From positions 1 to 32,682 of the forward strand of contig JAJKIL010000229.1 in the NCBI GenBank assembly GCA_021154515.1: a stretch of DNA of 32,682 nucleotides, written 5' to 3'. Every line of letters begins with the position of its first letter. Positions within the stretch are counted from its first letter, which is position 1. Shown here in pieces: positions 627 through 31,973 of this stretch. A program made the translations under genes and the position numbers. A model generated the notes under the pieces. The model worked only from the letters and a program-made list of their open reading frames with translations, did not search any database and had not been told where the DNA came from. Source of the stretch: Niastella sp. (GTDB lineage Bacteria > Bacteroidota > Bacteroidia > Chitinophagales > Chitinophagaceae).

Positions 627-3600
627 ATGAAGATCACAAATTTTGCTGTTAAAAACCATCAGTTCACGCTCATTATATTTCTGCTGTTTGCAGTAGTGGG
701 TGTACTTACCTTGTTTACAATGCCCCGTTCGGAAGACCCCACCACACATGCGCCGCAGTATCTTATAACTGTCATCTATCCAGGTACCAGTCCCAAGGAC
801 ATGGAGGAGCAAGTGGTAAAACCCATCGAGAACAAAATTTACGGTCTGGAAAATATCGACAAAATGCTTACTACCGTTGAAGATGGGGTGGCGGTCATTC
901 AGCCGAAGTTCAAATATGGAGTTGATGTAAACAATAAGTACCAGGAGATCTCTACAGAAATAAATGCTTTAAAGAACAGCGAGCTTCCCAAGGATATCTA
1001 TTTGATCAAAACAGAAAAGATCTCTTCGTCCGATGTCAAAATTTTACAGGTTGCATTGGTTTCGGATAACGCTTCCGATAAATTGTTGCGGGATGAAGCT
1101 GATATCCTGAAAACCCGCCTGGAGAAAATAACCAACCTTAAAGAAGTCAGGTATTTCGGAATGCCGGAACAGGAGATCCGGATCGATGTACAACTGGACA
1201 AACTGGCGCAACTGAAGATCCCGCTTACTATAGTTGTAGGTAGTTTACAAAGCGAAGCAGCAGACATTCCCGGGGGAAGCATCAACCTGGAGAGTAAGAT
1301 CTTTAATGTAAAGACCAGCGGCAAATTTAAGAACGTGGAGGATGTTGCCAATACCGTTATCTACAATGCCAATGGAAAGATAATATATCTGAAAGATGTG
1401 GCTGAAGTAAGTTATAAAAACGAAATGGTGAACCATATTACCCGGGTAAATGGTCATCGTTGCGTACTGGTTACTGCAGCAATGAAAGACAATGTTAATA
1501 TAGCGAACGTACAGAAGGAGTTTCTTCCCATACTGGATGAATTTTCAAAAGGATTGCCATCTAATATCCAGCTTGTCAAAACTTTTGATCAGGCTACTAT
1601 GGTCTCACAACGGCTTGGACATCTCGGATTTGATTTTGCCCTGGCCATTCTTCTGGTAGTTATTACCTTATTGCCGTTGGGATTCAGGGCATCACTGATC
1701 GTAATGATCTCTATTCCGCTTTCTTTGGCATTAGGGCTTATAGCTATGAATTTATTGGGTTTTTCTTTGAACCAGCTGAGTATTGTTGGCCTCGTAGTGG
1801 CTTTGGGGTTATTAGTGGACGACAGTATTGTAGTGGTAGAAAATATAGAACGCTGGCTTAGGGAAGGACATTCACTAAAGGATGCTATTCTAAAAGGCAC
1901 AAAACAGATAGGTGTGGCGGTAGTGGGATGTACAGCCACTTTAATAATTGCGTTCTTACCACTGGCCTTCCTGCCTGATATAGCCGGTGAATTTATCCGA
2001 AGCCTGCCAATGGCAGTTATAACCAGTGTATTGGCATCGATGATCGTGGCTTTGACGCTTGTTCCATTCATTGGAAGTAGATTATTGAAAACCCACACCC
2101 ATGGAGAAGGCAATTTTTTCCTTAAATATCTTCAAAAATTTCTAACTTACAGTTACCGGGGTATTATGCCTGTGGCTTTAAAATGGCCTAAAACAACCAT
2201 CGGGATCTCATTACTACTAAGTGTGCTGGCTTTTTTCCTGTTTACAAAAACTGGTTTCAAACTTTTTCCCACCTCCGAAAAACCCATGTTCCTTGTCAAT
2301 ATCAAAATGCCATTGCAGGCTGATATTCCGGAAAGTGACCGGGTGACCAAACTCGTGGAAAATGAATTAAGGCAATACAAAGAGATTGTCTATTACACAA
2401 GCAATGTTGGTAAAGGAAATCCACAAGTATATTATAATGTACATCAACAGGATGTTAAGCCAGACTTTGCCCAGATCTTTGTACAAATGGATAATGAGGC
2501 CAGTCCTGACTCGAAAACAGCATTAATCAAGCAGCTGAGACAAAAGTTCACCAATTTTCCTTATGCCAAAATAGAGGTAAAAGATTTTGAACAGGGAACG
2601 CCTATAGAGGCTAACATAGTAGTCAGGGTTTTTGGAGAAGATCCCAATAAGCTGCGTGAACTTTCCTTTAAGGTAGAGGATATTTTACGTAACCATCCAG
2701 GCACTGTTTATATCAATAACGAATTGAACACCTACAAATCAGATGTTAAAATAAAAATAAACAAAGAAAAAGCCCGCACCCTGGGTGTGCTTACAAGCGA
2801 TATCGACAAAGTGATAAGAATGGCGGTAGCGGGATTAACGGTGGGTGATTATATAGACGACAGAGGCGATTCACGCAATGTTGTTATAACGCTTTCCAGA
2901 GATAAATTTTCAAACCTGGATGCATTCAAAAATCTGTATGTAAATAACATCCAGGGTGTTCCGGTTCTGGTTGATCAAATTGCAACCATTTCTTTTGAAA
3001 CCTCGCCTACGGCCATCAATCATTTTAATAAATCCCGATTTGCCAAGGTTACCTCCTTAACCAAAGAAAAGGTATACGCAAATGATGTATTAAAGGATAT
3101 TGTTCCACAGCTAAACAAAATTAAAATGCCGCCTGGCTATTATTATAAGTTATCCGGAGAAGCGGAATCGGAAGGCGATGCGCTGGGTGGGAATTTCCTG
3201 TCAGTTATTTTATTAAGCACATTCCTTTTTATCGGAGTGCTGTTATTGCAATTCAAAACTTTTAAAGGTATCATTATTGTGCTCTCTATTATTCCATTAG
3301 GAATTCTGGGAGGGGTGATCATGCTGCTTATCGCCGGTCATCCGATGTCATTGGTCTCTATTATTGGTTTTATTGGTTTGTCTGGTATACAGGTCAAGAA
3401 TTGACTGTTACTCGTTGATTTTACTATCCGGTTGCGGGCTGAAGGACATAGTATAGATACCGCCATTAAAATAGCAGGAGAAACCCGCTTTTTACCGGTG
3501 GTACTTACTTCGATAACCGCCATATGCGGATTAATCCCGCTTGCGATGAACCCCAATCCGCTTATTTCACCATTAGCAATTGTATTGATTGGAGGACTAA

Positions 3601-3709: not shown

Positions 3710-4489
3710 ATGAAAGAATATGTATTGCTCACAGGAGCATCGTCAGGCATTGGTTATGAAATGGCCACTCAATTAGCTGCGAAAAAATTGAACCTGATCC
3801 TGGTAGCCCGCAACGAAACCAAATTGCAGCAAATGCAAAAGGAACTAACTACCACGTATGGCATTTCGGTTCAATACATCGTTAAAGATCTGTCGGATGT
3901 GCAAGCTGCCATTGGCCTCTACAAAGATGTGCAACGGGAAAAGCTTTTAGTAACCGCCCTGGTAAATAATGCAGGCGTAGGTAACTACGGCCATTTTATT
4001 GAAACGTCACTGGAAGAAGAACTCAAAATGATCGAGTTAAATATTTCCAGTGTGGTAGCACTCACCAAATTGTTTGCAAAAGAAATGGCAAGCCGTAAGT
4101 CGGGCAAAATTATGAATGTGGCATCCCTGCTTTCATTTTTACCATTTCCTTATTACTCGGTTTACTCTGCTACCAAAGCATTTGTATTGGCATTTACAGA
4201 AACAATTGCCGCAGAACTGGAAGGCACAGGCGTTGTAGTGACAGCTCTTTGCCCCGGACCTGTAGATACTGGTTTTAATACAGATAAGATGCTCTCTACA
4301 AATAACTTTAAAGCAAATAAGCCAATGCATCCAAAAGTAGTGGCACAACAAGGGGTGAAACTTCTTTTACATGGTAAGGGTAAAAAAGTAGTTGGCTTTA
4401 CAAACTGGTTTATTTCAAACCTGCCACGTTTTACCCCTGATAGTATTATGATGAAGATCAAAAAGAATTTAGCCAGTCAAAAAAAATAA
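3710..4489 (+). CDS. SDR family NAD(P)-dependent oxidoreductase
   Basis: N-terminal TGASSGIGYEMA Rossmann motif, NNAGVGNYG, YSATKAF catalytic motif. Confidence 0.93.
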   Translation: MKEYVLLTGASSGIGYEMATQLAAKKLNLILVARNETKLQQMQKELTTTYGISVQYIVKDLSDVQAAIGLYKDVQREKLLVTALVNNAGVGNYGHFIETSLEEELKMIELNISSVVALTKLFAKEMASRKSGKIMNVASLLSFLPFPYYSVYSATKAFVLAFTETIAAELEGTGVVVTALCPGPVDTGFNTDKMLSTNNFKANKPMHPKVVAQQGVKLLLHGKGKKVVGFTNWFISNLPRFTPDSIMMKIKKNLASQKK

Positions 4490-4633
4490 TTCCCGGTATG
4501 GTTTGTACAAGGGCTGGTTTTACCCCGGCCGTGAAAAGATTTGATTTAAATATTTAAATGATATTATTTTGGCCTTTGAATCGTTGATCAGTGATCGTAC
4601 CAGTTATGATCATTCTACTTAAAAACGCTTTAA

Positions 4634-5305
4634 TTGGCTTCGAACAATAACAATACCGTACCACCGCCCGATGAAAAACAACTATTTCTGCAGGTTTCTG
4701 AAGGTGATGAAAAAGCCTTCGGAATCCTGTTTACTGTCTTCCTACCAAAATTATATCCGTTTATTATAAAGCTTGTTAAATCAGAACCTGGTGCACAGGA
4801 AATTATACAGGAAACATTTATCAGGGTATGGTTATCCCGGGATAAATTAAGCGAAATAGATAACCCCGGCGGTTGGTTGTACAAAGTTGCATCCAATGAA
4901 TGCTATAGCTATTTACGAAAGAGCGTTTTAAATAATAAGTTTTTTAATACTATTACATTTGAACCTGACCCGGTAAACACCACACAGGAAAACTTTGCCT
5001 TAAAAGAATTGAACCGGCTTGTAGGTGAAGCTATCGATAAACTGCCCGCACAGCGAAAAAAAATTTACCGCATGAGCCGCGATGAGGGTAAGAGCATTCC
5101 CGAGATCGCTGCCATATTAAATCTCTCTCCCAATACGGTCAAGAACGCCCTGGTGACCGCCTTAAAATACATTCGGGAATACCTGGTCAAATACGGGATC
5201 ATCTTCTTCCTGTTACTCATGGCCGAAAAAAATAAAAATATTTTTTCAGCCGATAGTCCTAAACCTTCCCCCACTCTTCTTATTAGTGATAGCAGGCATA
5301 AATAA
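4634..5305 (+). CDS. RNA polymerase sigma-70 factor, ECF subfamily (TTG start)
   Basis: Sigma region 2 (IIQETFIRVWLSRDKL) and region 4 HTH (LPAQRKKIYRMSRDEGKSIPEIAAILNLSPNTVKNAL); followed by FecR. Confidence 0.9.
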   Translation: MASNNNNTVPPPDEKQLFLQVSEGDEKAFGILFTVFLPKLYPFIIKLVKSEPGAQEIIQETFIRVWLSRDKLSEIDNPGGWLYKVASNECYSYLRKSVLNNKFFNTITFEPDPVNTTQENFALKELNRLVGEAIDKLPAQRKKIYRMSRDEGKSIPEIAAILNLSPNTVKNALVTALKYIREYLVKYGIIFFLLLMAEKNKNIFSADSPKPSPTLLISDSRHK

Positions 5306-5310
5306 CAATA

Positions 5311-6489
5311 ATGAGCAAACAACGATTATCCTGGTTACTGGAACAACACCTGGCGAATAAAACAACGGAGCAGGAACGGCAGGAATTGCACGAACTGGTG
5401 AAAGCCAACGACAATGATGAGCTGTTTAAACAGGTGTTGAGTGAGAAAATGCAAACAGAAACAACCGGTGTTCCTGTAGATGCAGCACCCTGGCAAAAAA
5501 TGATCCAGGATATTGTGGGCATCGATAAAGCGCCTGCTCTACCTGTAAAAAGATCTGCCAATGTGTTTACATTATACCGGTGGGTGGCAGCTGCTGCCGT
5601 GTTAGTGCTGATAGGCACGGGTACCTATTTTCTTATGAACCGTACAACCAAACCAGCACTCACTGTTACAAAAAGCACGTTACCTGCATTACCAGTAACG
5701 CCGGTGAACAAAAACTCGTTGCTGCTCGCCGATGGGTCGCATATTTGGCTGGATGAAGTTAACAATGGAAAAATAGCGACACTGGAAGGAACCACTATAA
5801 CAAAAAAGGATTCACAAATTATTTATACCACTACCAGTAACAGCCGGGAAACTTATTACAATGTGGTGTCAACAGCGCGCAGCGGCCAATATGAAGTGGT
5901 GTTGCCCGATGGCAGTCATGTATGGCTAAACGCAGCTTCGGCTATCCGTTTTCCTGCATCCTTTACAGGAAAAGAACGATCGGTTGAATTGCTGGGTGAA
6001 GCCTGGTTCGATGTTCAACATGCCGATAAGATCCCGTTTATTATTCATTCCGGCAATATGGTTACCTCGGTAATGGGTACTGCGTTTGATATTAAAGCTT
6101 ACCCCGGCGAGCGGTCGATGATCGTTGCAGTGCAACGAGGTAAAGTAAAAGTACAGTCGGGCAACCAGTTACTGGCCACTCTGGAAAAAGGACGACAGGT
6201 AAAAGTAACAACCAATACAAGTCCTATTCAAAGCAACATCGATCCAGCCATCATTGCCGGTTGGCGAAAAGGCGACCTGTATTATAAAGATGAACGGCTG
6301 GCCGATATTACAGCCGATCTGCAAAGAGTTTTTAATGCATCCATTCAAATAAAAAAGGCATCCCTGAAAGAAGAGATCACTACAGTTTCTTTTAATAAAA
6401 ATACGGGACTAGCCAAAGCGCTTGCTATTATCTGCCGCATTACAGATGCCAGGTTTTCTGTAAACAACGGAATATACATTATAGAATAA
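5311..6489 (+). CDS. FecR family anti-sigma factor
   Basis: Single TM (WVAAAAVLVLIGTGTYFLM) followed by FecR domain (YEVVLPDGSHVWLNAASAIRFPASFTGKERSVELLGEAWFDV). Confidence 0.93.
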   Translation: MSKQRLSWLLEQHLANKTTEQERQELHELVKANDNDELFKQVLSEKMQTETTGVPVDAAPWQKMIQDIVGIDKAPALPVKRSANVFTLYRWVAAAAVLVLIGTGTYFLMNRTTKPALTVTKSTLPALPVTPVNKNSLLLADGSHIWLDEVNNGKIATLEGTTITKKDSQIIYTTTSNSRETYYNVVSTARSGQYEVVLPDGSHVWLNAASAIRFPASFTGKERSVELLGEAWFDVQHADKIPFIIHSGNMVTSVMGTAFDIKAYPGERSMIVAVQRGKVKVQSGNQLLATLEKGRQVKVTTNTSPIQSNIDPAIIAGWRKGDLYYKDERLADITADLQRVFNASIQIKKASLKEEITTVSFNKNTGLAKALAIICRITDARFSVNNGIYIIE

Positions 6490-6512
6490 GCAACCTCACC
6501 TACTTACTTTTT

Positions 6513-9140
6513 ATGAAAAAAATGAAACCAATTCTGGTATTCATATGCTGTACCTTTTTGTTAATCGGGAAGGTCCGCGCACAGGATATGGATAAAGTGA
6601 CCATTAGTATTGAACTAAAAAATGCATCGCTTGAAGAAGCATTTACCAAAATTGAAAGCGGTACGTCTTTTAAATTCAATTATAAAACGGCCGATATAGC
6701 CGGCGTTAAAGGGATTAACTACAGGCAGCAGCATGTTACCGTAAAAAAATTACTGGCTGATATAACCGTCAATACCTCCCTGCAATTTGAGCAATTCGAC
6801 AATTATATAGTGGTAAAAAAGACCGGCAAACAGTCATCACACAGCATAACCATTTATGGATTTGTTACGGCAGCCAATTCAGGCGAATCATTAATTGGCG
6901 CAACGGTAAATGTGGCGGGTAATAAAACCTATTCAACCATTACCAATGCTTATGGCTTTTATTCGTTAACAGTTCCTGCAGCCACCTATACGGTGAACTG
7001 TTCTTATGTTGGGTTCAAAGACATCGATACCACTGCCGATCTTCACCGAACTTACCAGCACAATATTCAACTGGTGTTGAATGAGCATACCCCTCTTCAG
7101 ACCGTTGTAGTAGCTACAACAGCAAAGAAAAATCCTGTTAAAAATACGATCACGGGTTATCACCGGTTAAGCATTGCGGAGATCAAAAAGATCGCGATGC
7201 CCGGGGGTGAAGCGGATGTACTAAAGAGCCTTCAGTTTTTGCCGGGGATACAAACGTCTGCCGAAGGCACTACCAATTTATCGGTGCGCGGCGGATCGTA
7301 TGATCAAAATCTGATCCTGCTCGATGAAGCGCCGGTATACAATCCCACCCACACCCTCGGCTTTTTTTCCGCCTTCAATACCGATGCGCTGAAAGATGTT
7401 GCTATTTATAAAGGCGTATTCCCTTCCTGGTATGGATCACGCTTATCTTCGGTGGTAGACGTGCGGATGAAAGAAGGCAACGCTAAAAAGTATACTGTCA
7501 CCGGCGGCATCGGTTTCCTGGCAAGCCGTTTAACGATAGAAGGTCCCATTAAAAAAGAGCGATCTTCCTTTATTGTTTCGGGACGGTACAGCAATATCGG
7601 CATGTGGTTAAAAATTCCTCAGATAGCCGAAAAGATAAACCAGAATACAAAAAATAGCCGGGTATCTTTTTACGACCTGAATGTAAAATTAAACAAGCGG
7701 CTTGGTGCAAAAGACCGCCTTTATTTATCTGCCTATACCGGCTATGATAATTTTTTCCTGAACGCCCTTGATAAAGGAAACGAAATGAATTGGAGCAATA
7801 CTACTGTTACCGCCCGGTGGAACCATATCTTTAATTCAAATGTATTTGCCAATACTTCCTTACTGTACAGCAACTACAAGTATTCATATGATCTGGTAGA
7901 AGATACCCGGAATTTTACCTGGCGCGCCAATTTAAAGGAGGTCACTCTCAAAACAGATCTCGACCTAACCATCAATGGCAACAACCAGGTAAAATTCGGT
8001 ACCGGTATCACTGCACAGGATGTATTGCCGGGCCAGGTAAATCAAAAATCTGCCAGTTCTGCCTCAAAGGAAGTACAACTCAATAATCGCAGTTCAGCTC
8101 AATTATTTGCCTATATAAACAATGAGCAAAAAATAAGTAAACGCATCAGTTTGTCGTACGGACTTCGGGCTACCTGGTTTGCCGCGTTGGGCGATGCAAT
8201 GGTATACCGGTATAATGCCGATAACTCAGATGTGATTGACAGCACTTATTATTCAAAGGGTAAAGTCATCAAATCCTATATGGGCATGGAACCAAGGGCC
8301 ACTGCCAGAGTGCTGCTCTCCCCCACTGCTTCGTTGAAGTTCTCCTATGGCCGCAATTATCAGTTCCAGCACCTGTTAACCAATTCATCTGTTGGCTTGC
8401 CAACCGATCTTTGGATGCCTTCGGATCCCTACTTTAAACCTCAGTATGCCGATCAGTATGCGGCGGGCTTTTACAAAACCATTCTAAACGATTCTTACGA
8501 AGGAAGTATAGAAGGGTATTACAGAAAATCGTATAACATCACTGACTTCAAGGACAATGCTGAGGTTTTCCTGAATGATAAAATAGAAACGCAGGTTTTA
8601 ACAGGCGGGCAAAAAGGGTATGGACTGGAGTTCATGCTGAAAAAGAACAGCGGCGCTTCAACCGGCTGGATAAGTTATACCTGGTCAAAGGCGCTGCGCC
8701 GTATTTATGGCGTAAACAATAACGAATGGTACCCGCCTACCTACGACCACCGCCACAATATTTCGTTTGTATATTCTTATGCTATTAATAAAAGAGCGAG
8801 TGTATCTGTGAACTGGATCTATAGAAGTGGTGGCCGCACCACTATACCATTAGGCACTTATATATTTAATGAGGCCCGGTGGTTATATTATGGTAAAAGG
8901 AACGAATATCAGCTTCCGGCCAGCCACCGGCTCGATATAAGCGCCACCTGGAAAACCAGGGAAAAACCAAACAGAAAATGGCAGAGCGAATGGGTGTTCA
9001 GTGTTTACAACGCATACAACAGGCAAAACGTATTTGCTTTGTTCATAAGCCAGTCATATAATGGCTATACCAATACTAAAGCCACCCAGGTATATCTCAC
9101 CGGCATTCTGCCATCAATCACCTACAATTTTAAATTTTAA
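6513..9140 (+). CDS. TonB-dependent outer-membrane receptor with STN and carboxypeptidase-like regulatory domain
   Basis: Signal peptide, STN-like N-terminus, CarboxypepD_reg-like domain, plug domain (SVRGGSYDQNLILLDEAPVYNP), C-terminal beta strand ending in F. Confidence 0.92.
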   Translation: MKKMKPILVFICCTFLLIGKVRAQDMDKVTISIELKNASLEEAFTKIESGTSFKFNYKTADIAGVKGINYRQQHVTVKKLLADITVNTSLQFEQFDNYIVVKKTGKQSSHSITIYGFVTAANSGESLIGATVNVAGNKTYSTITNAYGFYSLTVPAATYTVNCSYVGFKDIDTTADLHRTYQHNIQLVLNEHTPLQTVVVATTAKKNPVKNTITGYHRLSIAEIKKIAMPGGEADVLKSLQFLPGIQTSAEGTTNLSVRGGSYDQNLILLDEAPVYNPTHTLGFFSAFNTDALKDVAIYKGVFPSWYGSRLSSVVDVRMKEGNAKKYTVTGGIGFLASRLTIEGPIKKERSSFIVSGRYSNIGMWLKIPQIAEKINQNTKNSRVSFYDLNVKLNKRLGAKDRLYLSAYTGYDNFFLNALDKGNEMNWSNTTVTARWNHIFNSNVFANTSLLYSNYKYSYDLVEDTRNFTWRANLKEVTLKTDLDLTINGNNQVKFGTGITAQDVLPGQVNQKSASSASKEVQLNNRSSAQLFAYINNEQKISKRISLSYGLRATWFAALGDAMVYRYNADNSDVIDSTYYSKGKVIKSYMGMEPRATARVLLSPTASLKFSYGRNYQFQHLLTNSSVGLPTDLWMPSDPYFKPQYADQYAAGFYKTILNDSYEGSIEGYYRKSYNITDFKDNAEVFLNDKIETQVLTGGQKGYGLEFMLKKNSGASTGWISYTWSKALRRIYGVNNNEWYPPTYDHRHNISFVYSYAINKRASVSVNWIYRSGGRTTIPLGTYIFNEARWLYYGKRNEYQLPASHRLDISATWKTREKPNRKWQSEWVFSVYNAYNRQNVFALFISQSYNGYTNTKATQVYLTGILPSITYNFKF

Positions 9141-10505: not shown

Positions 10506-10979
10506 TTGACACAAGAAGAACTCTTCAACACACCCGAAGCCCGGGCACAAGCCGAAAAAAGTAAAAAAAAGGCCAGAAAAACAGCCGCCAAACTAAAGCC
10601 TTCTGCAGAAGTGTGGGCCGTTATTAATGGCCTGGAATACCTCACTGAGGAAACAATAGAAATCCTTAAACAAAGAGGCCAGGAATGGCACGACAAGTGG
10701 CCGATTGGCGAACCACATTACAAGAGTGACGAAGATGGTTACCAGTTTGTCATTCATTCCAACCAGGTGGCAGAAATGTATAAGTGTCGTATTCGTAAAG
10801 CCCAGGAAATGCTAGCGGCTGTTCGCCTGGCGATAGGCAAAGATGAAGGTAGCTTTGTAAGTGTAAAGGAATTTTGCTTCATCCATAAAGAGGATGAAGA
10901 AGATTTTCGCCGGGCATTACGCAGTATCCAACAAGATTTCAGCATTGACTCAAAAAAGAGGCCGCCCAAAGAAAAATAA
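10506..10979 (+). CDS. Small hypothetical protein with HTH-like C-terminal half (TTG start)
   Basis: 157 aa. C-terminal segment FVIHSNQVAEMYKCRIRKAQEMLAAVRLAIGKDEGSFVSVKEFCFIHKEDEEDFRRAL resembles small Bacteroidota HTH-like proteins; basic, Lys-rich N-terminus. Confidence 0.6.
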   Translation: MTQEELFNTPEARAQAEKSKKKARKTAAKLKPSAEVWAVINGLEYLTEETIEILKQRGQEWHDKWPIGEPHYKSDEDGYQFVIHSNQVAEMYKCRIRKAQEMLAAVRLAIGKDEGSFVSVKEFCFIHKEDEEDFRRALRSIQQDFSIDSKKRPPKEK

Positions 10980-11001
10980 CTTCATATATATATTGAGGCC
11001 G

Positions 11002-11312
11002 TTACTATATAGAAATCATACTCCACTATATATCTTCACCCCATTTCTATATAGAAATCACCCTCCACTATATATTTTCACCCGGTTTCTATATAGTAAC
11101 GGTGCTTCACTATATATTTTTGTACCATTTCTGTATAATAATGATACGCTACCATATAATTTCACCCTGTTTCTATATAGAAACAGGGCCTCACTATATA
11201 TTTTCAACCCATTTCTATATAGAAACCACCCCCCGCTATATATTTTCATACCGTTTCTATACAGAAACCATATGAAATTAATTATTAGCATATCGTTTTT
11301 ATATAGAAAAGG
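11002..11312. repeat. Tandem array, 42-bp unit, each unit carrying palindrome TTTCTATATAGAAA and a second CTATATATTTTC box
   Basis: Units begin at 11002, 11044, 11086, 11128, 11170, 11212, 11254 and 11296 (last partial). The 14-bp palindrome is perfect in units at 11044, 11170 and 11212, with 1-3 changes elsewhere. CTATAT recurs every 21 bp. Confidence 0.9.
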
Positions 11313-11440
11313 TGCTTCATTCAGCTGCATTTGATGCCTGCCCGCAACAATTAGCTACGCCCACTTTAACTTATGTCAAATTTTACAGGAAAAAATCTGT
11401 CGCAAATAGCCCAACAAGGACGCCAGATAACCACGCAGAA

Positions 11441-11716: not shown

Positions 11717-11782
11717 AGCAGGTTAAGACCACTGATAGTAGCGTACGGTCTTTCGATTTTTTAACCTGTAAAATTGACGATC

Positions 11783-12394
11783 ATGAAAAAGAACGTCGCC
11801 AGATACAAAAAACGCCAGGTTGACATCGCAATAATATGTCAACGCGTTATAGAGAACATGGAAAACAATCCGGTTTTCCCCAATCCACCAGCCGCGCTGG
11901 CAGAACTCAAAAAAGTACTGCCAGAATTCCAAACGGCGCTTGCCAAAGCCGAAGGACGCGACAAACAAATGGTGTCCATTAAAAACGATAAGAAGGCCAT
12001 CGTTCTGGCTTTATTACAGGAACTGTCTGAGTATGTGACTGTAATCTGTAAAGGCGATAGAACGCTGATCCTGAGCAGCGGTTTCGATGTTACCAATGCA
12101 ACCAGCGGCGGCAGCAACCTGCCCCCTTCTGTCGAATTACTGGAAGTTGATCTGGGCTCACCCGGTGAGGCTACCACCCGTGCTAAAAATGTAACAGGTG
12201 CAAAAGCCTACGTACATCAGTACACCAAAGAGCCACCCAGTTTAAACACCGAATGGATCGGAATAGGCAATTCAGCGAGTAGCTACACCTTCGAGGGACT
12301 GAGTTCCGACAAGCGCTATTGGTTCCGCGTTGTTGCCATTGGCACCGACGGACAAAGAGGCTATTCGCCGGTTGTTTCCAAGGTCATTCAATAA
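11783..12394 (+). CDS. Fibronectin type III domain-containing protein
   Basis: C-terminal half matches an FN3 pattern (GAKAYVHQYTKEPP...TEWIGIG...SYTFEGLSSDKRYWFRVVAIGTDGQRGYSP). ORF is open from 11774 (TTG); ATG at 11783 preferred. Confidence 0.75.
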   Translation: MKKNVARYKKRQVDIAIICQRVIENMENNPVFPNPPAALAELKKVLPEFQTALAKAEGRDKQMVSIKNDKKAIVLALLQELSEYVTVICKGDRTLILSSGFDVTNATSGGSNLPPSVELLEVDLGSPGEATTRAKNVTGAKAYVHQYTKEPPSLNTEWIGIGNSASSYTFEGLSSDKRYWFRVVAIGTDGQRGYSPVVSKVIQ

Positions 12395-21052: not shown

Positions 21053-21116
21053 AAACCTGTCAGGTGCACTTTGGTATCTTGCCCGGCCGAACTGTTTATG
21101 TGCAGCTGACAGGTTT
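21053..21116. repeat. Long inverted repeat between the two GH29 genes
   Basis: AAACCTGTCAG-g-TGCAC (21053-21069) pairs with GTGCA-g-CTGACAGGTTT (21100-21116): 16 of 17 positions pair, 30-nt loop. Confidence 0.8.
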
Positions 21117-21123
21117 ACTACGT

Positions 21124-22488
21124 CTATAATAAAGTCAGTTCAATAACGGGAATTTCGATATTCGGTTGCTGCGGCAATTTTATTTGCAGATCATTTGAAT
21201 TATCACCAACCGGCTCATATTTTATTTCTGAATTATCATGCAGGAACTGCGCATATTTTATCTTCCCTTTATACCCGGGCAATGTAAGCGTGGAGGGGTT
21301 ATATTTATATTGCATCAGGTGCAGGTATATTTTTTTAGTAACCGGGTTGTAGGTCAGCAAGGTATTCTCAGGCGCTTTATATTCAGCCGGCGCCTGCGTA
21401 CAACCATAAATGGCCTGCTGATTATATTTCATCCAAACCCCAATGCTATCCAGGGCGCGAACGGCGCGATAATCAAAATAACCCCTGGCAGTGGGCCCTA
21501 CATTAAGGATCAGGTTGCCACTTTTGCTTACGGCTGTAATCAACAGGGTAAGCAGCTCGTGGTTCGATTTCCAACTGTTCTCATCCCGGAAATATCCCCA
21601 CGATCCGGAGAAGGTCTGGCAGGTTTCAAACGGCAATCCGCCATATTCACTTTGCAATTCCGATGGTTTCACCTGTTCGGGGGTAGCAAAATCAGCGCCA
21701 TCTGAATACTCATCGAGATCGAGCCGGTTATCGACAATAATACCGGGTTGCAGTTGCCGGATCATTTTCAACAATTCCACGGAACCCCAGTCGTTTTTTC
21801 CCTTACCATGCCCGTTTGAATTGGGATAGGAGAAATCGAGCCACAGGATATCTATCTTTCCATAATTGGTCAATAATTCCCTCACCTGGTTATGCAGGTA
21901 AGCTTTATATTTATTCCAGTCGCGGCCTTTATTTATTTTGGCATAATCTGAATCAGCTTCGCTTTTGGGTTGTAACGGGTGAACGCCATCAACTGTAAAA
22001 TCAGGATGATGCCAGTCGATGAGAGAATAATAAAAACCTACCCTGATCCCTTCAGCCCTGAACGCATCTACAAACTCTCTTACCAGGTCGCGCTTTGCTT
22101 TGGTTTTGGTAGATTTATAATCTGTATATTTTGAATCGAACAAACAAAAGCCTTCATGATGCTTGGTGGTCAATACGGCATATTTCATCCCGGCTGCCTT
22201 TGCCTGTTTCGCCCACGTTTTGGGATCGAACATATCGGGATTGAACATATCGAAGTAAGGCTGGTATTGCTCGTTGTTCATCCGCTCCCAGCGCTTTACC
22301 CATTCGTGACGCGCAGCCTGCGCATACAGTCCCCAGTGAATAAACATTCCAAACCGGTCGTGCGTCCACCAGGCCATGCGTTCTACTTTTTGTTCGTGCG
22401 TCTCATTCCCGATCTTCTTTTGGGCACGGGCTGTTTGTAATAGCAATAATGAAAGAATAAAAACAGCGATCTTTTTAATCTTATACAT
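21124..22488 (-). CDS. Alpha-L-fucosidase (GH29)
   Basis: DRFGMFIHWGLYAQAARHEWVK, LTTKHHEGFCLFDSKYTDY, IDILWLDFSYP, SGNLILNVGPTARG. Confidence 0.93.
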   Translation of the reverse strand: MYKIKKIAVFILSLLLLQTARAQKKIGNETHEQKVERMAWWTHDRFGMFIHWGLYAQAARHEWVKRWERMNNEQYQPYFDMFNPDMFDPKTWAKQAKAAGMKYAVLTTKHHEGFCLFDSKYTDYKSTKTKAKRDLVREFVDAFRAEGIRVGFYYSLIDWHHPDFTVDGVHPLQPKSEADSDYAKINKGRDWNKYKAYLHNQVRELLTNYGKIDILWLDFSYPNSNGHGKGKNDWGSVELLKMIRQLQPGIIVDNRLDLDEYSDGADFATPEQVKPSELQSEYGGLPFETCQTFSGSWGYFRDENSWKSNHELLTLLITAVSKSGNLILNVGPTARGYFDYRAVRALDSIGVWMKYNQQAIYGCTQAPAEYKAPENTLLTYNPVTKKIYLHLMQYKYNPSTLTLPGYKGKIKYAQFLHDNSEIKYEPVGDNSNDLQIKLPQQPNIEIPVIELTLL

Positions 22489-22507
22489 GTATGGTCGTTT
22501 TATCGGA

Positions 22508-23710
22508 TTATTTATTTTTCATCAGTTTTACGTTGCTTATCCTTATAGTTTGCTGTGCAGGTACTGCCATGCTGGCTACCACGCCCAGTGTTACAGTAGC
22601 AGCCGTTGGAAGTGTGAACGAAGCCGATACCAGTTTATTGGAATTATCGGTGAACCTGCCATACCCTAAAGCAGTTGTTATATCTGCCACATCTGGCAAT
22701 GCGTTTCCTGATGCTATAGCAAGATAAGCAGCCTCCAGCGAGTTATCAATATTCGATACGGCAGCCTCCAGTACATATTCGCCGGCAGGCAGCGTTACGG
22801 TCTGGTAGATTTTTCCATTGGTAAGAACGCCGTTATCCCAGATCCATAAGGTCATACAGGCATTGTCGACGCCATTGATGGCATCCCAGGTATAGCGGTT
22901 ACGGGCTTCATCGTTGTATTGCCAGTTTAACAACTGTCCAAATCGCCAGTTGCTGTTTTGGGCATTATCCAACAGGAATGGCGACCCGGGATTGTTAATG
23001 TATAGAGCCGTTACATCAGCTTTTACCGGCAGGTTGGCAAAACCGGTGGTAAATGTATCTATGGCCAGGGAAGCCGGTTTATACAACGTACGGTACTGTG
23101 CCTGCGTACCGGGCAACAGATCGGGTAACCTGGTTACCTGGTCTTTATAAACAGCCTTTACCAGGGTGTCGTGCGTACCGTTATTTACATCGGTATACTT
23201 TAGTTGCATACCAATAACTCCGGTTGTTGAATCGGCATCGCTCCAGGTAATTTCAGCCGTATCGTTTATCAGTTCGGCATTCGCAACGCCCCTGTTCAAT
23301 AAAGCGGCAGCATACAGATCGCCATACACCGTACCCGAAACGGTTACTTTAATGGAACTGTTGCCTGCTTGATCGTAATTATAGATCTCGAAGTCGTAGT
23401 TGCCTTCGGTCAGGTTATTGATAATAACCCGCATGGTATCTATGGCCGATGTACGCTGAACAGGTATTTCAACGGAATCAGTATGATTCTTCCAGAATAC
23501 TTTCGATCTTGTTATGGTAGGGTCAGATAAGAGTAACCAATATAGCTGCACTCTTTTCTTTCCGGCATATACCCGCGCCGAATCGGCTTTGGCAGTGTAT
23601 ATGATCTCGCCCCCTTCTACAAACTTTTTAAATTCATCTGCTTTTTTGCAGGACAGTACCAGGCCTGTGGCAACAAATAACAGGCTGATAACGGTTCTTA
23701 TTACATTCAT
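22508..23710 (-). CDS. DUF4998 domain-containing surface lipoprotein
   Basis: Lipobox LVLSCKK; GGEIIYTAKADSARVYAGKKRVQLYWLLLSDPTITRSKVFWKNHTDSVEIPV. Confidence 0.83.
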   Translation of the reverse strand: MNVIRTVISLLFVATGLVLSCKKADEFKKFVEGGEIIYTAKADSARVYAGKKRVQLYWLLLSDPTITRSKVFWKNHTDSVEIPVQRTSAIDTMRVIINNLTEGNYDFEIYNYDQAGNSSIKVTVSGTVYGDLYAAALLNRGVANAELINDTAEITWSDADSTTGVIGMQLKYTDVNNGTHDTLVKAVYKDQVTRLPDLLPGTQAQYRTLYKPASLAIDTFTTGFANLPVKADVTALYINNPGSPFLLDNAQNSNWRFGQLLNWQYNDEARNRYTWDAINGVDNACMTLWIWDNGVLTNGKIYQTVTLPAGEYVLEAAVSNIDNSLEAAYLAIASGNALPDVADITTALGYGRFTDNSNKLVSASFTLPTAATVTLGVVASMAVPAQQTIRISNVKLMKNK

Positions 23711-23757
23711 ACATTCGTTTTTATTCTTGCATGGTGAATGGTCAATGATATAGGGGA

Positions 23758-24954
23758 TTACCTGCTATCGCCCCAGAACGACATTTCCGCAACGTTGGCA
23801 GCATAGCCGCCATCCGTCCAGGTGCGTAATATCTTCAACCGGATGTAACGCACTTTAGGCGCCGTGAGTGGTATATCCATTAACTCACCCGTTTCAGCAG
23901 CCGCCAGATCTGCAGCGTTCGTGGTGCCAACCGGTAACCCGGAAGGCTTTATAACCGTATGATGCGCGAGCAGCGTCCAGCTATTGTCCCAGGCTCCATT
24001 GGGATTGGGGTTATCAGCGCCGTATACTTCAAATTCCCGCAGGTTGTTCTGTGCATAGATCCAGCCGCCATCCTGGTTACGCTGCCATAAACCCACCCGG
24101 CTCAACTGGGCCAGCGTACCCATGTCGAATGTGATCCACATGGGCATACCATCCAGCTTATCGGCCGAGTGCCACATATTATACCCGGTGAAAATACCAT
24201 CCCAGAGATCGGTCATGGATAAGCCCCAGCCATAACCTATATCGGTAGGCAGATCTACTTCCTTAAATTTTGTTTTATCCAACAGCTCTTCATACAGTGG
24301 TGTATATTCCCCCGTTAACGTATCGGAGATATTTCCCCACCTGTCCTTTACAAAAAATCCGAATTTTCTTTTTTCTGCTTTATATCCCCGCAATGAATAA
24401 ACGCCGCTGTCGGCGTTGGTATAATGTGCATCGGTTTGGTCAAACACGCCGGTTGAATCGGTAGTGAGCCCAACGATGGACACATCTGCGCTGCTTTTAT
24501 TTTTAAACGACACATTTACCCCGCCAAAATCAGCCCGCACCTGCAGGCTGCGGTATACATCCAGGTAAGGCGGGGTATGCGGACTTACAGTAATAGTAAC
24601 AGGGGCTGATTGTTTTTCGTCGCGGGTTACCACATATAGTTCTACCTGGTGAAGCAGGGTATCGGCAAACCCATCTACCACCAGCGAGTTGTTGTAATAG
24701 GAGGCGCGTACTTCGCGTTTTTCGCCCGGTTTATTTTCGTACACCGCTTTTACATATAACAAACCGGGGCTTGCCGGCAGTGTATAGGTTAACTGCGCAG
24801 CGCCCGGTAAATTAGTAATGGATACGCTCTTCAACGGATCCGGCGTTGAACCATCACCTTCTCCCGATAACGGCTCATGGATCTCGGGCTTACAGCCATA
24901 CAGTACAACCAGCAACATGCCTGTAATGATCAGCGTTCGTTTGTATAGTTTCAT
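23758..24954 (-). CDS. DUF5000/DUF4959-type lipoprotein with discoidin-like C-terminus
   Basis: Lipobox LLVVLYGCKPE; early PGAAQLTYTLPASPGLLYVKAVYE; C-terminal F5/8 type C-like WITFDMGTLAQLSRVGLWQRN...KVRYIRLKI; downstream of SusD. Confidence 0.8.
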   Translation of the reverse strand: MKLYKRTLIITGMLLVVLYGCKPEIHEPLSGEGDGSTPDPLKSVSITNLPGAAQLTYTLPASPGLLYVKAVYENKPGEKREVRASYYNNSLVVDGFADTLLHQVELYVVTRDEKQSAPVTITVSPHTPPYLDVYRSLQVRADFGGVNVSFKNKSSADVSIVGLTTDSTGVFDQTDAHYTNADSGVYSLRGYKAEKRKFGFFVKDRWGNISDTLTGEYTPLYEELLDKTKFKEVDLPTDIGYGWGLSMTDLWDGIFTGYNMWHSADKLDGMPMWITFDMGTLAQLSRVGLWQRNQDGGWIYAQNNLREFEVYGADNPNPNGAWDNSWTLLAHHTVIKPSGLPVGTTNAADLAAAETGELMDIPLTAPKVRYIRLKILRTWTDGGYAANVAEMSFWGDSR

Positions 24955-24974
24955 GTATTGTAAGATTGTAGAGT

Positions 24975-26888
24975 TTACCAACCATAATTTTGTACCAGTC
25001 GTTTATTTCCCAGCAGGTCCCAGTAGTCTAGCGGCCAAAAGTAATCGCGGGTTTTAAAAGTTTGCTGATACCGCAGGCGGGGGCGGTAATAATAGGCAGC
25101 CGCCTCCTGGTCTACATCCCAGCCCATGACCGGTTTATTCAATTCTTCAAACGACTTTTTCCAGCGCCGCAGGTCCCAAAAGCGGCTGCCTTCCAGCGCC
25201 AACTCTATCAGCCGTTCCTGCTGAATGATCTGCCGCAACCCATCTTTGCTTTGGTATTTAGCAGGTTGAAGGGAATAGTTCGTCCAGGATTCCTGTACCG
25301 TTTTTAAACCGGCCCGCAGTCGTACTTTATTTATATATTCAAACGCTTCCGTACCCGGGCCATTCACTTCATTCAATGCTTCGGCGTATAACAAATACAG
25401 GTCCGACAAACGCATTTCGGGCCAGGCATAATCTTCAATGGTCAGTTCCTGCGCGTCTTTGATCACATATTTCCAGTTCACCAGTTTTTTAGCAAAGTAG
25501 CCGGTAGCATTATAATCCCAGTTGCCTTTACGCGACTGCAACTGGCCATTCTTTGCCTGTACATTAAATGTTCCGTTTTGCATATACCACACCGCACCAT
25601 CAAAGGCGAGGTTGGCATAAAAGCGGGGTTCCCGGTTGAAATTAAGCACCGCGGTTTCGTAGCCATTAGTTATAAATTCGTTTTCAGCAGCTTTGCCTGT
25701 ACGCAATTTGTACCGGTTGCTGTAATCCCAGTTCTTATCTTCATTGATAGGCACCCCATTCTCCGTATAAAACAATTCAGCTATTTTAAGGGTGGGCGCC
25801 AGGCTGCCAAGACACATTTCATTGGTTATTTTAGTGGGATCAAGCCGTGGCATGGCAAAGCGTTGCAAGGTATACGTGCGATCGGTAGTGCCCGCGCTGC
25901 CTTTTGTATTGTTCCAGATAATTTCTGCATTCCATGCTTCGGTAACGCTGTTGCGTATGCTCATTTGCGTAACCATGGCGTCTGACAGGGAAAGCCCCAG
26001 CTTATCAAATTTGTACAGGTGCATCCCGGCGCTTTCACAGGCAGTAATGGCTTCTTTACAGGCAGCAGCGGCCCGTTCCCACTTTCCCGCATCATAAGCC
26101 GCGTTGAAGAATGCCGTTCCGTCGTAATTTTTAAACCCTGCATAATCGCCGTTGCCATTAAACAGCGGACTGGCCGCTGTAACCAAAACCTTCGCTTTTA
26201 TAGCCAGTGCAATAGGTTTGGTAATATGCCCCAGTTGGGTGGTACGATCTGAAATGGTAGCGGGCAGTCCGGCAGCTGCTTCATCAAGCAGGCCGGCAAT
26301 ATAATTTATTGCCGAATCAACCGTTTGCCGGGGTCTTTGCGCTTCATCGGAAGTGGCGGAAATGGGCAGATTTACATCGGTAACCGGTATAGGGCCATAC
26401 ATCCTTAAAAGACACCAGTGATAATATGCTTTTAAAAATTTCACTTCATGACCCCACCTGTCTTTCTCGGCATCCGTCATATCTACCACCTTATTAATAT
26501 TATCCAGGAAAATATTACAGTCCCGGAAAGCGCTGAACATATTGCTCCAGCCCGGCATATAGATCGTAGTGGCCGTTTGATACCCCATCGCGATCTTCCA
26601 GGGCGATTCGCTTAGGGCAAAAGGCGCCACCATCCAGAATTCATCGCCTGCACACAGGGCAGGGTTTGTTTGCATATCGCCACTGGCCGGCAGATAAGAG
26701 TAACAGGTGGCCAGGTATTTGGTGGCTTCCTGTTTTAACTTAAATGCATTGTCAATGGTAGCTACATTATCAGGCACCACATCGAGGTATTTTTTACAAC
26801 TGCCGGCAAAAAGAATACACAGCACCGGCAACCAGTTCTTTATGCATTGCATAACAGCGGGACATTTATATGTTGAAACAGGTTCCAT
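24975..26888 (-). CDS. RagB/SusD family nutrient uptake outer membrane protein
   Basis: CKKYLDVVPDNVATIDNAF; RLSDLYLLYAEALNEVNG; C-terminal ELALEGSRFWDLRRWK. Confidence 0.95.
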   Translation of the reverse strand: MEPVSTYKCPAVMQCIKNWLPVLCILFAGSCKKYLDVVPDNVATIDNAFKLKQEATKYLATCYSYLPASGDMQTNPALCAGDEFWMVAPFALSESPWKIAMGYQTATTIYMPGWSNMFSAFRDCNIFLDNINKVVDMTDAEKDRWGHEVKFLKAYYHWCLLRMYGPIPVTDVNLPISATSDEAQRPRQTVDSAINYIAGLLDEAAAGLPATISDRTTQLGHITKPIALAIKAKVLVTAASPLFNGNGDYAGFKNYDGTAFFNAAYDAGKWERAAAACKEAITACESAGMHLYKFDKLGLSLSDAMVTQMSIRNSVTEAWNAEIIWNNTKGSAGTTDRTYTLQRFAMPRLDPTKITNEMCLGSLAPTLKIAELFYTENGVPINEDKNWDYSNRYKLRTGKAAENEFITNGYETAVLNFNREPRFYANLAFDGAVWYMQNGTFNVQAKNGQLQSRKGNWDYNATGYFAKKLVNWKYVIKDAQELTIEDYAWPEMRLSDLYLLYAEALNEVNGPGTEAFEYINKVRLRAGLKTVQESWTNYSLQPAKYQSKDGLRQIIQQERLIELALEGSRFWDLRRWKKSFEELNKPVMGWDVDQEAAAYYYRPRLRYQQTFKTRDYFWPLDYWDLLGNKRLVQNYGW

Positions 26889-26909
26889 TGTGTTTGCTTT
26901 GTTGAATGA

Positions 26910-29900
26910 TTAAAATCCCAGGTTTACGCCCACATTGTATACCCGCTGTACCGGGTAGCCTAACCCGTTGCCACCCATTTCGGGGTCCCACATGTTGAAC
27001 CTGCTGATCACAAACAGGTTGAAGGCATTGGCATAAATGCGGGTATTGCTGAAATGCAGCTTGCTGAGCAGTGACTTTGGAAATGTATACCCAACTTCGG
27101 CTGTTTTCATCCGTAAGAAGTCACCTCTCCGCATCCACCAGGTGGAAGTCTGGATGTTGTTGGCTGCATAATAATTACTCAGGCGCGGCCAGAAGGCATA
27201 GGGATTGCGGTTATTCTCGCCCCAGTAATCATCGGCAATAGCGGCCAGCAGGCCATGCTGGCCACCCCCATCGAGTACGAAGGGCGCCATTTTAGAAGAT
27301 TCTATCATGAAAGAAGAGCGGGCCGATCCCTGGAAATAACAACTCACATCCCATTTTTTATACCCGAACGACAAACCAAAACCGTAAGTGATCTCCGGTG
27401 TGGTGGGTAAGCCAATGGGCACCATATCCGCATCGGTAATTTGTCCGTCATGGTTTACATCCCGGTATTTAATGTCGCCGCCCCGTACCCGGTACTTTCC
27501 ATTTTCCGCCAGGTTATCCTGGCCGAAGTTCTGGACAGGCGCATTATTCACTTCATAATCGTCAATAAATAACCGCTCGGCTATAAACCCATACGTTTGC
27601 GAAAGCGGTTGGCCTACACGCCGGCGGTATGCTTCCGGGTACGCAGGTTCTTCATTCACCAGCAATTTACTGGTAGCATACGTAAATGTACCGCGGGCCT
27701 GCAACCAGGTATGTTTTCCCAGGTTATAGGTATAATCAGCAGAAAGATCAACCCCTTTACCTTCCGCCTCACCTACATTGGCCTGGATGGGTGCGCTTAA
27801 TCCCATCATACTGGGAATAGTGCCTCGCGTCATTAAGATATTGGAACGTCGCTCACGATACACATCCACCAGTATATTCAGCGAATTCCAGAGTCCCAGT
27901 TCTATGCCTACATTTGTTTTGTAAGATCGCTCCCAGGTTATATCGTAATTTTCGTACCTGTTCACCGAGATGCCATTTGAAGTATTATTATACATTTCGC
28001 CAAAGCCGTATGACCGGTTGCCATTGTTCATATTTACATCCGACAAATAGAAGAACCGCTCCCAATCAGCGCCAATCTGGTCGTTGCCAACGAGCCCATA
28101 AGTTGCCCGCAATTTCAACTTGCTGATAAAGGACAGGGGTTCAAAGAATTTTTCGTTCGATACATTCCAGGCAAGGCCTACAGAAGGGAAAAAACCAAAC
28201 CGGTGATTTTGGGCAAACCGCTCGGAGCCGTTGTAACCGAAATTGAATTCAGCCATGTACCGGTTGTCATAGGCATACGTAAAGCGGCCGGAGACGCCAT
28301 GATTACGGTGTGGCAGCGATAATTGCAGGCTGCCGGCATTGGCGGCTAAATAGTTCCTGAACAAGGTGATCAACATGCCCGAAACATTATGCTTTTGGCC
28401 GATCTGCCGGTTATAGTTCACTGCTGCTTCCAGGTAACTGGTGGTATTTACTGTTTTGGGTCCTTCGCTGTAATTCAGGTATTCCGTACCGTTGGTATTC
28501 AGCGGGGTAAGCCTGGGGACTTTGGTTTGCAGATCGTAAGAAAGCTGGTAATAGAACGGAGTGTATTGCCGGGTCACATCGAAGTAAGAATATCGCTGGG
28601 TATACGCCATTAGCCGGGCAGCCAACCCCGGCGTAATGAATGCCAGATCCTGTTTCAATTCTAACTGCGCCTGTAAGGTGGAGCTGTTATATTGCTGATA
28701 CCCCGACATCATACTGGCGTAGGGATTATTGTATAAGTTGCTGCCGTTGCCCGGGAACGGATTAATGACATCTGAACGAAAGGCATTGCCAAATAAGGGA
28801 TGGGTTAACCCGGGCGCATAACCGGCCGGGTATACCGGTGCAAATTTCACCGGATTGGCCCATACCGCCTGCTTAAAAATAGTGTCACCGCCGCCAACAG
28901 GCCCCTTATAGTCATTAAACTGCCCGTATGTTCGAACAATGGCCTGGGTGGTGGGCGTAAAATTGAAAGTAACATTCGACCGGATGGAATAGCTCTTCAG
29001 CTTTATGTTGCTGTTGAAATTATTGATCTTGTCAACCTTCAACACCCCGTTATCGATATTGTAGGTACCGGCAATATAATATTGCGCTAATTTATTGCCG
29101 CCGCTTACGTTCATATCAAAACGCTGATTATTGGTATAATCTTTTATGAGTCGTTTTAACCAGTTGTTGCTGGGGTACAGATAGGGATCGTCGCCGGCGG
29201 CTGTATGATCGATCTTGCTTTGGGAATACGGTACATTTTCAAGCGCATTCCTTGTTGATACCGCTTCATTGGCCAGCTTCATGTAGGAAACGTTATCGGC
29301 GAACCTGTAGTTGCGGGTATTGCTGCTTAACGAATTTTCGGCGCGGATATTAAACCTCGTTCTTCCATCCGCACCTGACTTGGTGGTTACCAGCACTACG
29401 CCATTGGCGCCCCTGGCCCCATACAATGAAGAAGCCGTGGCATCTTTCAATATGGAGAATCCCGAAATATCATCAGGCTGCAGCCGCGCCAGGTCGGTAG
29501 ATGAAGATTCAATGCCATCAATGAGGATCAGCGGATCTACCTTACCGGTACCAAAGGTGGTAATGCCGCGGATAAAAAAACTCGCATTGTCTTTTCCGGG
29601 CTCGCCGCTTCGCTGATAAGAAATAACACCTGAAAGCCTGCCGGCCAGCATAGTCGTTAAATTACTGACAGGCCCTTTTAATTCTTTTGGATTAATAGTA
29701 GTAACGGCGCCTACCATGGTGGTCTTTTTTTGCGTACCATAGGCCACCACCGCAACTTCTTCCAGCGAATTGTTAGCGCTCTTAAGTTTTACATTAATGA
29801 CGCTTTCTCCTTTAATATCTATTTCTTCTTCTTTATACCCTACTGAAGTAATGATCAGGGTACCGTTTGCCGGCGCTTTCACCAGGTACCTGCCGTTCTG

Positions 29901-30386: not shown

Positions 30387-30402
30387 CGTTTTGGTTTTGG
30401 TC

Positions 30403-31272: not shown

Positions 31273-31364
31273 GGGTTGTAAGTATTGTCTCTCTACTATA
31301 AAGACACAATAATTTTACTTCCAACTCAGTGTTGACCATTTTTTTTATGCAGGAGTAAGTTCAA

Positions 31365-31973
31365 TTATAAAACAAAGGGGAATAGCAGGATGATCCAGAA
31401 AAATTCAGGATGGTTCCTTAACGCCGTTTTGAACCGGTTCATGATGCGGTTGATATTATTTACCAGGGACTGGTAATTGATGTTAAGTATCCGGCTGATC
31501 TCTTTGTAAGACAGGCCCTCATAAAAGCGTAAATAAATAACCTCTTTCTGGCGGGCAGGCAGGGTGTTGATCATCTTCGTTAGCTGACGGGTATTAAAAG
31601 AGGCTGATTCCTTTTTTATTCTTATTTCTTCGGGAGAAAATTCAATATCGGGGGTATGAAAGCGGGTTGTTATTTTTAGTTCGTATAATTTCAGGGAGCG
31701 GAGTTTGTTCAATATAGCACAGCGCAAACAGCGCATCAGGTACGCTTTTACAAACTGTACTTCCGGAAGCGCGGCCCTTTTTTCCCATAATTTCAGGAAC
31801 AGCTCCTGTATAGCGTCATACGCGAGATCAGGGTCCTGTAACATCCGAAATGCATAGGCATGTAAGGAGTGAAAAAAAAGGTCATGTAACATCACAAATG
31901 CTTTTTCGTCTCCCTTTTTGAACGCGCTCCAGCATTCGGCAGTGTAAGTATTATCGCATCGGTCCTGTTGCAT
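31365..31973 (-). CDS. RNA polymerase sigma-70 factor, ECF subfamily
   Basis: AYDAIQELFLKLWEKRAAL (region 2) and LPARQKEVIYLRFYEGLSYKEISRILNINYQSLVNNINR (region 4). Confidence 0.93.
   Translation of the reverse strand: MQQDRCDNTYTAECWSAFKKGDEKAFVMLHDLFFHSLHAYAFRMLQDPDLAYDAIQELFLKLWEKRAALPEVQFVKAYLMRCLRCAILNKLRSLKLYELKITTRFHTPDIEFSPEEIRIKKESASFNTRQLTKMINTLPARQKEVIYLRFYEGLSYKEISRILNINYQSLVNNINRIMNRFKTALRNHPEFFWIILLFPFVL

Follow-up and report, generated by a model that had tools for sequence, protein, structure and literature searches.

In plasmid replication iterons, direct repeats are placed about two helical turns apart. Bacterial satellites of constant unit length, with units of 20–23 or 52 nt, were described by Subirana and Messeguer (PMC8161180; PMC6749651). 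Those of 20–23 nt are scattered through many bacteria with a species-specific sequence; their length was noted to be two helix turns, a protein that polymerises on DNA has already been proposed for them, and their function has been unknown since their description (PMC8161180; PMC6749651). According to the 2021 paper on Bacillus, sequences are conserved between close relatives at most, and the word palindrome is not used in it (PMC8161180). In the case of plasmid F, sopC/parS consists of twelve 43-bp repeats with 16-bp inverted repeats that are bound by ParB (PMC6238139). BrickBuilt of Porphyromonas gingivalis is a minisatellite-MITE with a 23-nt unit, in which leader and tail segments carry terminal inverted repeats (PMC4596501), and REP/BIME elements and RAYTs are a further point of comparison (PMC3733652).

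The window array and its neighbours

The window, i.e., the whole stretch of 32,682 nucleotides that was analysed, is contig C229 of G000, a 4.69-Mb assembly with 495 contigs and 61% completeness. Eight matches to TTTCTATATAGAAA with 0–3 mismatches follow one another at a step of exactly 42 bp (P boxes, Table 1); three are exact, four carry one mismatch and the fourth box carries three. The whole window contains 14 matches of this type against 3.2 expected, and none of 100 shuffles reached 14. Tandem Repeats Finder assigns this stretch a period of 42 (6.9 copies) and, in addition, periods of 21, 84, and 126; indels amount to 0–3% for periods 42, 84, and 126. The original prediction of tandem 42-bp units with a palindrome is therefore borne out by eight 14-bp boxes in exact register, and the claimed recurrence of CTATAT every 21 bp is found as CTATATA/TATATAG in the same 21-bp register. 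The exact helical spacing also agrees with the proposal that the boxes lie on one helix face, two and four turns apart. A second box midway in each unit had been claimed as well; this holds for approximately five of the seven units, in which the box is CTATATATTTTC or a one-base variant, but it is altered at 11149 (CTACCATATAATTT) and lost at 11275–11288. The unit that matches P box 4 reads TTTTCATACAAAAA, TTTTTGTACAAAAA, or TTTTTGTACAGAAA in the other arrays of the genome (C25, C225, C312), and TTTTTGTACAAAAA is altered on both arms and is itself perfectly palindromic.

Table 1. Positions of the window array, its boxes and linkers, and the adjacent reading frames (window coordinates).
Feature	Position	Strand	Description
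157-aa gene	10506..10979	+	predicted helix-turn-helix-like C-terminal part, modest confidence
Mechanical ORF through array	10894..11334	+	judged not a gene
Whole window array	11002..11309	.	8 palindromic boxes, exact 42-bp register, 21-bp half-units, intergenic
P box 1	11002..11015	.	TTACTATATAGAAA, 1 mismatch
7-bp linker after P, example	11016..11022	+	reverse complement of ...CGTACYR type
B2 (second) boxes, 14 bp	11023..11246; starts 11023, 11065, 11107, 11149, 11191, 11233	+	mostly CCRCTATATATTTT, midway between P boxes
Linker before next P	11037..11043		CACCCCA = reverse complement of YRGGGTG
P box 2	11044..11057	.	TTTCTATATAGAAA, exact dyad
P box 3	11086..11099	.	TTTCTATATAGTAA
P box 4	11128..11141	.	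degenerate TTTCTGTATAATAA
P box 5	11170..11183	.	exact dyad
P box 6	11212..11225	.	exact dyad
P box 7	11254..11267	.	TTTCTATACAGAAA
P box 8 (terminal)	11296..11309	.	TTTTTATATAGAAA
206-aa gene	11774..12394	+	C-terminal fibronectin-III-like; homologs repeatedly downstream of 21n-bp array

We found TTTCTATATAGAAA 18 times in the assembly, always inside one of four arrays (C25, C225, C229, C312) with approximately 7–9 units each, and the reversed control pattern had zero matches across the assembly. All four arrays are intergenic and their neighbours differ; from reading the sequence, we take the neighbours of the other three to be TPR-like, repressor-like plus sterol-desaturase-like, and two Gfo/Idh-type oxidoreductases. 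No shared ends are visible by eye among the four arrays, except that C225 and C312 share ~40 bp on one side. A separate short-repeat family, TCAACC/GTTGAC with a period of 16–24 bp, occurs near genes and beside the C225 array; such repeats were seen at L244 12799–12856, L239 7342–7434, and L021 ~2950–3050.

The window array is placed between the stop codon of the 157-aa gene (10979) and the 206-aa gene (11774). No family was found for the 157-aa protein in Pfam, NCBIfam, or the PDB; AlphaFold models it poorly as a whole (mean pLDDT 63, with C-terminal helices at ~72–84), and a PDB fold search with this model gave no match. Relatives of the gene exist in all ten genus genomes, including G004, in which we found no array, and approximately one array per genome adjoins a homolog. 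It had been asked whether arrays always sit beside a homolog of this protein. A dedicated tie is not supported, because the other three arrays of the genome adjoin unrelated genes, with no homolog seen beside them, and most arrays in the genus lie elsewhere. Furthermore, the G000 and G005 homologs are ~86% identical while the adjacent cores differ completely; with this, the ubiquity of the gene, and the few arrays that adjoin it, the 157-aa protein is unlikely to be the general partner of the arrays. In G005 and G006, an apparent intrinsic terminator hairpin separates this gene from the array; G007 has one 3' of the gene, at a site where no array was seen. The window gene has no obvious terminator, and the array begins ~20 bp past its stop codon.

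Homologs of the fn3-like 206-aa gene were observed near a 21n-bp array in the window, in G005 (1783k, 3643k, 2257k, 7667k), and in G001, G009, and G002, with the array usually on the promoter side. The four G005 copies have a different core upstream of each, and in an unbiased 400-kb sample of G005 both fn3 copies (2/2) have an array. At ~7.667 Mb in G005 (L250 16857–17151), the array has a 63-bp period (3 x 21) and a dyad-like core, TTTGATCGATTAAA, and is located upstream of the fn3-like gene at L250 17547–18116.

The genes at 3710–9140 and 21069–31973 of the window are, by our ORF reading, presumably short-chain dehydrogenase, sigma factor, anti-sigma/TonB-type, and SusC/SusD-like genes. Genes of the parAB type were found neither among the window ORFs nor as Pfam matches in the near neighbours scanned (in G000, the window genes alone). 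The array gave no match to plasmid, phage, or viral contig collections, which does not support the plasmid context that was to be checked.

Scaffold, cores and positions across the genus

The exact palindrome pair at a spacing of 40–44 bp is absent from 100 relatives. The search that had been recommended, TTTCTATATAGAAA with 42-bp spacing across relatives, thus gave no match, yet this result is misleading: it would wrongly count against the array, because most relatives carry an array with another core. A phased TATA/ATAT scan revealed at least seven arrays with TTTTCATATGAAAA in the congener G006, and these agree with the window array in frame and linkers. When the core was left open and TTT-N8-AAA was required four times at 42-bp steps (at most two mismatches allowed), nine of the ten genus genomes gave matches; this core-blind scan fixed TTT/AAA and the 42-bp spacing, and their constancy among congeners is therefore partly ascertained. 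The matches in G002 are weak, and the reversed control is equally frequent there. In G004, which is listed as 100% complete, no array was found by the core-blind pattern; therefore, the function of the array is not essential in the genus.

Consensus sequences were compiled from 43 loci in R orientation, few of them from G001, G002, and G009, and the frame and neighbour counts use 41 arrays. The consensus is TTTCTATATAGAAA in G000, TTTGCAGCTGCAAA in G001, TTTTTACGTAAAAA in G003, TTTCTAACTGAAAA in G005, TTTTCATATGAAAA in G006, TTTGCAATTGCAAA in G007, TTTATAGCTGGAAA in G008, and TTTTCCCAGGAAAA in G009. Beside the window type, the dyad cores of the genus include CTATATAG, TCATATGA, GCAATTGC, TTACGTAA, CTAACTGA, and GCAGCTGC. 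The linkers are common to the genus, with YRGGGTG following the box and (GGTAG)CGTACYR preceding the next one (also written YRGGGTG, GGTAGCGTACYR), and the B2 box of each other species carries that species' own core. That a species has one core is a strong tendency, not a rule: G005 holds several core classes, CTAACTGA, CTCATGAG (1783k, 7181k), and CCCAGG (2257k), and G007 and G003 hold two each, the second one minor.

Among array consensuses, the cores are 0.70 identical within genomes and 0.44 between them (p = 0.0005 by label permutation), and the identity of the B2 centre is 0.76 and 0.47, respectively (p = 0.0005). In contrast, linker identity is 0.54 within and 0.49 between genomes (p = 0.085, not significant). 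The linkers are almost as diverse within a genome as between genomes, whereas the cores are homogeneous within and different between them. Wholesale conversion of units or the recent spread of one array would homogenise cores and linkers alike. A mix of old unit types could lower the linker identity within genomes, but a genome-wide change of core would still act on the core alone.

The N8 core shows dyad symmetry in 2.77 of four pairs against 1.25 with columns permuted (12 core classes, p ≤ 5e-5), and this symmetry is independent of the array search because N8 was not part of the pattern; the G005 core alone is a poor dyad (1.67 of four). The linkers flanking the box show no pairing above permutation (p = 0.14) and the two flanking bases show it slightly (p = 0.01); therefore, the dyad is operator-sized rather than a long stem. 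Long hairpins spanning the linkers, which a few perfect 24-bp palindromes had prompted us to consider, were rejected on the same test. Terminal units agree less with the genome consensus than interior units do (0.76 against 0.86–0.88, p = 1.5e-4). Two arrays of G005, at 453k and 4958k (L199 2686–2769, L194 2652–2735), begin with one or two units of TTTATAGCTGGAAA, the dominant core of G008, an apparent relic of another core.

A motif-free test was made with Tandem Repeats Finder on 400-kb samples (taken at even intervals in G005 and at contig starts in G692, which belongs to another genus), counting non-redundant periods of 10–70. Periods 21, 42, and 63 account for 7 of 14 repeats in G005 and 14 of 22 in G692; periods 20 and 22 are absent, and periods 18, 24, and 27 contribute zero and two repeats, respectively. 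Samples of G004 and G006 contain two and three weak period-21 repeats, respectively. A variable-gap scan over 395 genomes of the class returned array-like matches at steps of 21 or 22–23 bp only, together with scattered chance-like matches and one 29-bp tandem in G440. A scan for five TATA at 21-bp steps matched in 27 of 299 Chitinophagaceae genomes; some of these matches resemble coding heptad repeats, and the reversed control is not independent of the pattern (TATA and ATAT overlap). Selection on box, palindrome, and phase, as the original prediction had it, agrees with boxes that are far more conserved than linkers, with dyad symmetry that persists through sequence change between species, and with the dominance of period 21 among the tandem repeats sampled in two genomes.

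In addition, AA/TT is phased at 10.5 bp in eight of nine genomes, strongly in five; this harmonic is dominant in G000, G001, G003, G006, and G009, moderate in G002, G005, and G008, and missing in G007, and it is partly ascertained, as TTT and AAA at 11 bp are within the search pattern. Other Chitinophagaceae genera (G692 L151–L170; L125–L150) show many 21-bp arrays with a sequence that varies from locus to locus within one genome, several of them at contig ends, which suggests that the arrays break assemblies. G132, from another family, has dispersed arrays of CTATATAT-type units with YACC at 22–23 bp steps (L105, L112, L115, L117).

Arrays are present in two or three species at no fewer than five intergenic sites. 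Flanking genes are shared by the arrays of G000 C225 and G005 1432k, of G005 360k and G006 C214, of G005 6957k, G006 C189, and G008 C33, and of G005 5578k and G008 C39; G001 C58 and G002 C1b have some flanking genes in common, the G002 array being doubtful. The window order of 157-aa gene, array, and fn3 gene is kept in G005 with the core CCCAGG, and 157-aa gene followed by array is kept in G006 with the core CATATG, at a contig end. Orthology of these sites is based on two to four flanking genes each. The cores differ at every orthologous site, the array orientation is opposite in two pairs, and the linkers of arrays at orthologous sites are no more alike than those at non-orthologous ones. 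These sites are old, with contents that turn over. The genes flanking the 41 arrays are tandem, divergent, or convergent, with no clear preference and no common function. G005 is a 9.03-Mb single contig with arrays dispersed along it; by reading, ~7 of 11 are co-oriented with the replichore, which is not significant, so a segregation role receives no positive support from orientation.

Proposed protein binding and its alternatives

From these patterns we infer, with a confidence that only modestly favours it, that the arrays are sites of cooperative binding by dimeric DNA-binding proteins, the specificity of which switches from one species to the next; the role is probably architectural or centromere-like. 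One dimer of the putative sequence-specific protein would sit on each 14-bp dyad box, and a further dimer would occupy the midway B2 box, in which much of that core recurs. With its strict 21-bp step, the array would set the dimers on one helix face so that neighbours could touch, and A/T tracts with a phase of 10.5 bp may favour bending or wrapping. The ~4–15 dispersed intergenic arrays of a chromosome could jointly act as nucleation points of an architectural or centromere-like nucleoprotein structure. The core would match the genome's own protein, and the linkers and the phase would serve a common geometry. Because each species has its own dominant core, the putative protein and its sites seem to change together, with scaffold, spacing, and several positions kept. 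Arrays scattered around the chromosome beside no particular type of gene are more in line with an architectural, tethering, or centromere-like role than with local control, but the fn3 association still allows for some regulation of adjacent genes.

The arrays could instead be neutral or selfish satellites, made and homogenised as 21-bp-unit arrays by slippage and unequal exchange, with one variant per genome spread by gene conversion and without cellular function. Terminal units that diverge from the consensus, as in eukaryotic satellites, the apparent relics of other cores at array ends in G005, orthologous arrays no closer in their linkers than non-orthologous ones, and the tolerance of array absence in G004 all agree with this. 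Conversion of whole units should, however, homogenise the linkers too, and these vary almost equally within and between genomes; dyad conservation, the 21-bp preference, and the positions common to several species are also left unexplained, and we regard this explanation as unlikely. Movement as REP/BIME- or MITE-like repeats by a tyrosine (RAYT) or other transposase would account for dispersed, intergenic, palindromic arrays, has a precedent in BrickBuilt, a MITE with a 23-nt minisatellite (PMC4596501), and could draw on the Y1-transposase gene present in all ten genus genomes. That gene is nevertheless also present in G004, where no array was found, the species consensus table shows no consistent GTAG/CGTC tag at the hairpin foot, no shared terminal repeats are obvious, and positions common to species are unlike those of recently mobile copies; such mobility is very improbable.

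Control of the adjacent gene by the arrays as local operators or enhancers, above all in the fn3-domain family, is unlikely: fn3 homologs lie at or near arrays at ~8 loci of several species, with the array usually on the promoter side, and both copies in the unbiased G005 sample have one, but most of the 41 arrays have other neighbours, sharing neither function nor orientation preference, and a promoter scan showed no excess with a sigma-70 model, which is poorly suited to Bacteroidota. We also doubt strongly that the arrays act as transcribed RNA, with a chain of hairpins that serves as a small-RNA precursor, a sponge, or a stabiliser. The arrays do fold with energies far lower than those of shuffles (z of -4 to -14), and constant-length satellites are transcribed in Bacillus coagulans (PMC8625621), but the folding signal appears on both strands, as expected of any array of short dyads, the stems stop short of the linkers, an Rfam search gave no match, RNA would have no obvious use for a 10.5-bp phase, and at the window locus the congener arrays lie beyond the apparent terminator hairpin of the upstream gene. 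A repetitive protein gene with 14-aa repeats (FLYRN...) might be read from a period that is a multiple of three and from the 146-aa ORF that runs through the window array. This coding reading is rejected as scarcely credible: no frame is open in all 41 genus arrays, the best being open in 17, periods 18, 24, and 27 are rare, and elsewhere in the class phased arrays step by 22–23 bp.

More speculatively, and with considerable doubt, these dispersed chromosomal arrays may be viewed as a bacterial counterpart of centromere satellites or PRDM9 sites, in which scaffold, spacing, and sites would persist while the dyad core is replaced genome-wide from species to species. A dimeric DNA-binding protein that evolves fast would drive this replacement by co-evolving, perhaps in conflict, with the arrays. 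Sister species provide a natural swap experiment, with the same scaffold, several of the same sites, and a different dyad core, which sets the core, as the part that must match something in its genome, apart from the linkers. The core swap makes the protein–DNA explanation directly testable in a species pair and offers an assay by which the putative protein could be fished out. Such a cognate protein, if there is one, would represent a rapidly switching bacterial DNA-binding specificity and perhaps an unrecognised chromosome-organising system in Bacteroidota.

Relation to described repeat systems

Unlike iterons, the arrays described here have no adjacent rep gene and occur in many dispersed copies. 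They resemble sopC/parS in the tandem unit of ~42–43 bp, with one inverted-repeat box in each, and in the clustering of sites, here putative, for dimers, but they are chromosomal, several to a dozen in number, and dispersed (on the 9.03-Mb contig of G005) rather than confined to a single plasmid site, with a second box every 21 bp and a species-specific core. They share with BrickBuilt the occurrence in Bacteroidota as dispersed intergenic arrays, and BrickBuilt positions are conserved between strains; in contrast, no leader, tail, or terminal inverted repeats were seen by eye, and the step is 21/42 bp with dyad cores instead of 23 nt. REP/BIME elements are likewise dispersed extragenic palindromes in species-specific families, but our arrays lack the GTAG/CGTC tag and have exact helical tandem spacing and operator-sized dyads. 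We found no description of such arrays in the literature on Chitinophaga repeats, and a common scaffold with a switching dyad core and conserved positions was not found described in the openly accessible literature.

The likeness to constant-length satellites is greater in kind: tandem, mostly noncoding arrays with a unit of about two turns, several families per genome, a species-specific sequence, and a short conserved motif. The unit is constant at 21/42 bp in exact register in the window and in its relatives, a multiple of the ~20–23 nt that define the class; the arrays are intergenic, without a common open frame; and they are dispersed and differ between species, with four in G000 and arrays in nine of ten congeners, mostly with different cores. 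The absence of conservation between species, which was reported in other taxa and is no requirement of the class, does not apply here, as the linkers are genus-wide with 0.49 identity between genomes. Compared with the described satellites, the families of different species thus have a recognisable common scaffold (42-bp unit and linkers), the variable part is the dyad core, and arrays occur at orthologous sites in several species. The array belongs with the constant-length noncoding satellites, a known class; what is new is the combination of a common scaffold, a dyad core that switches, and conserved positions.
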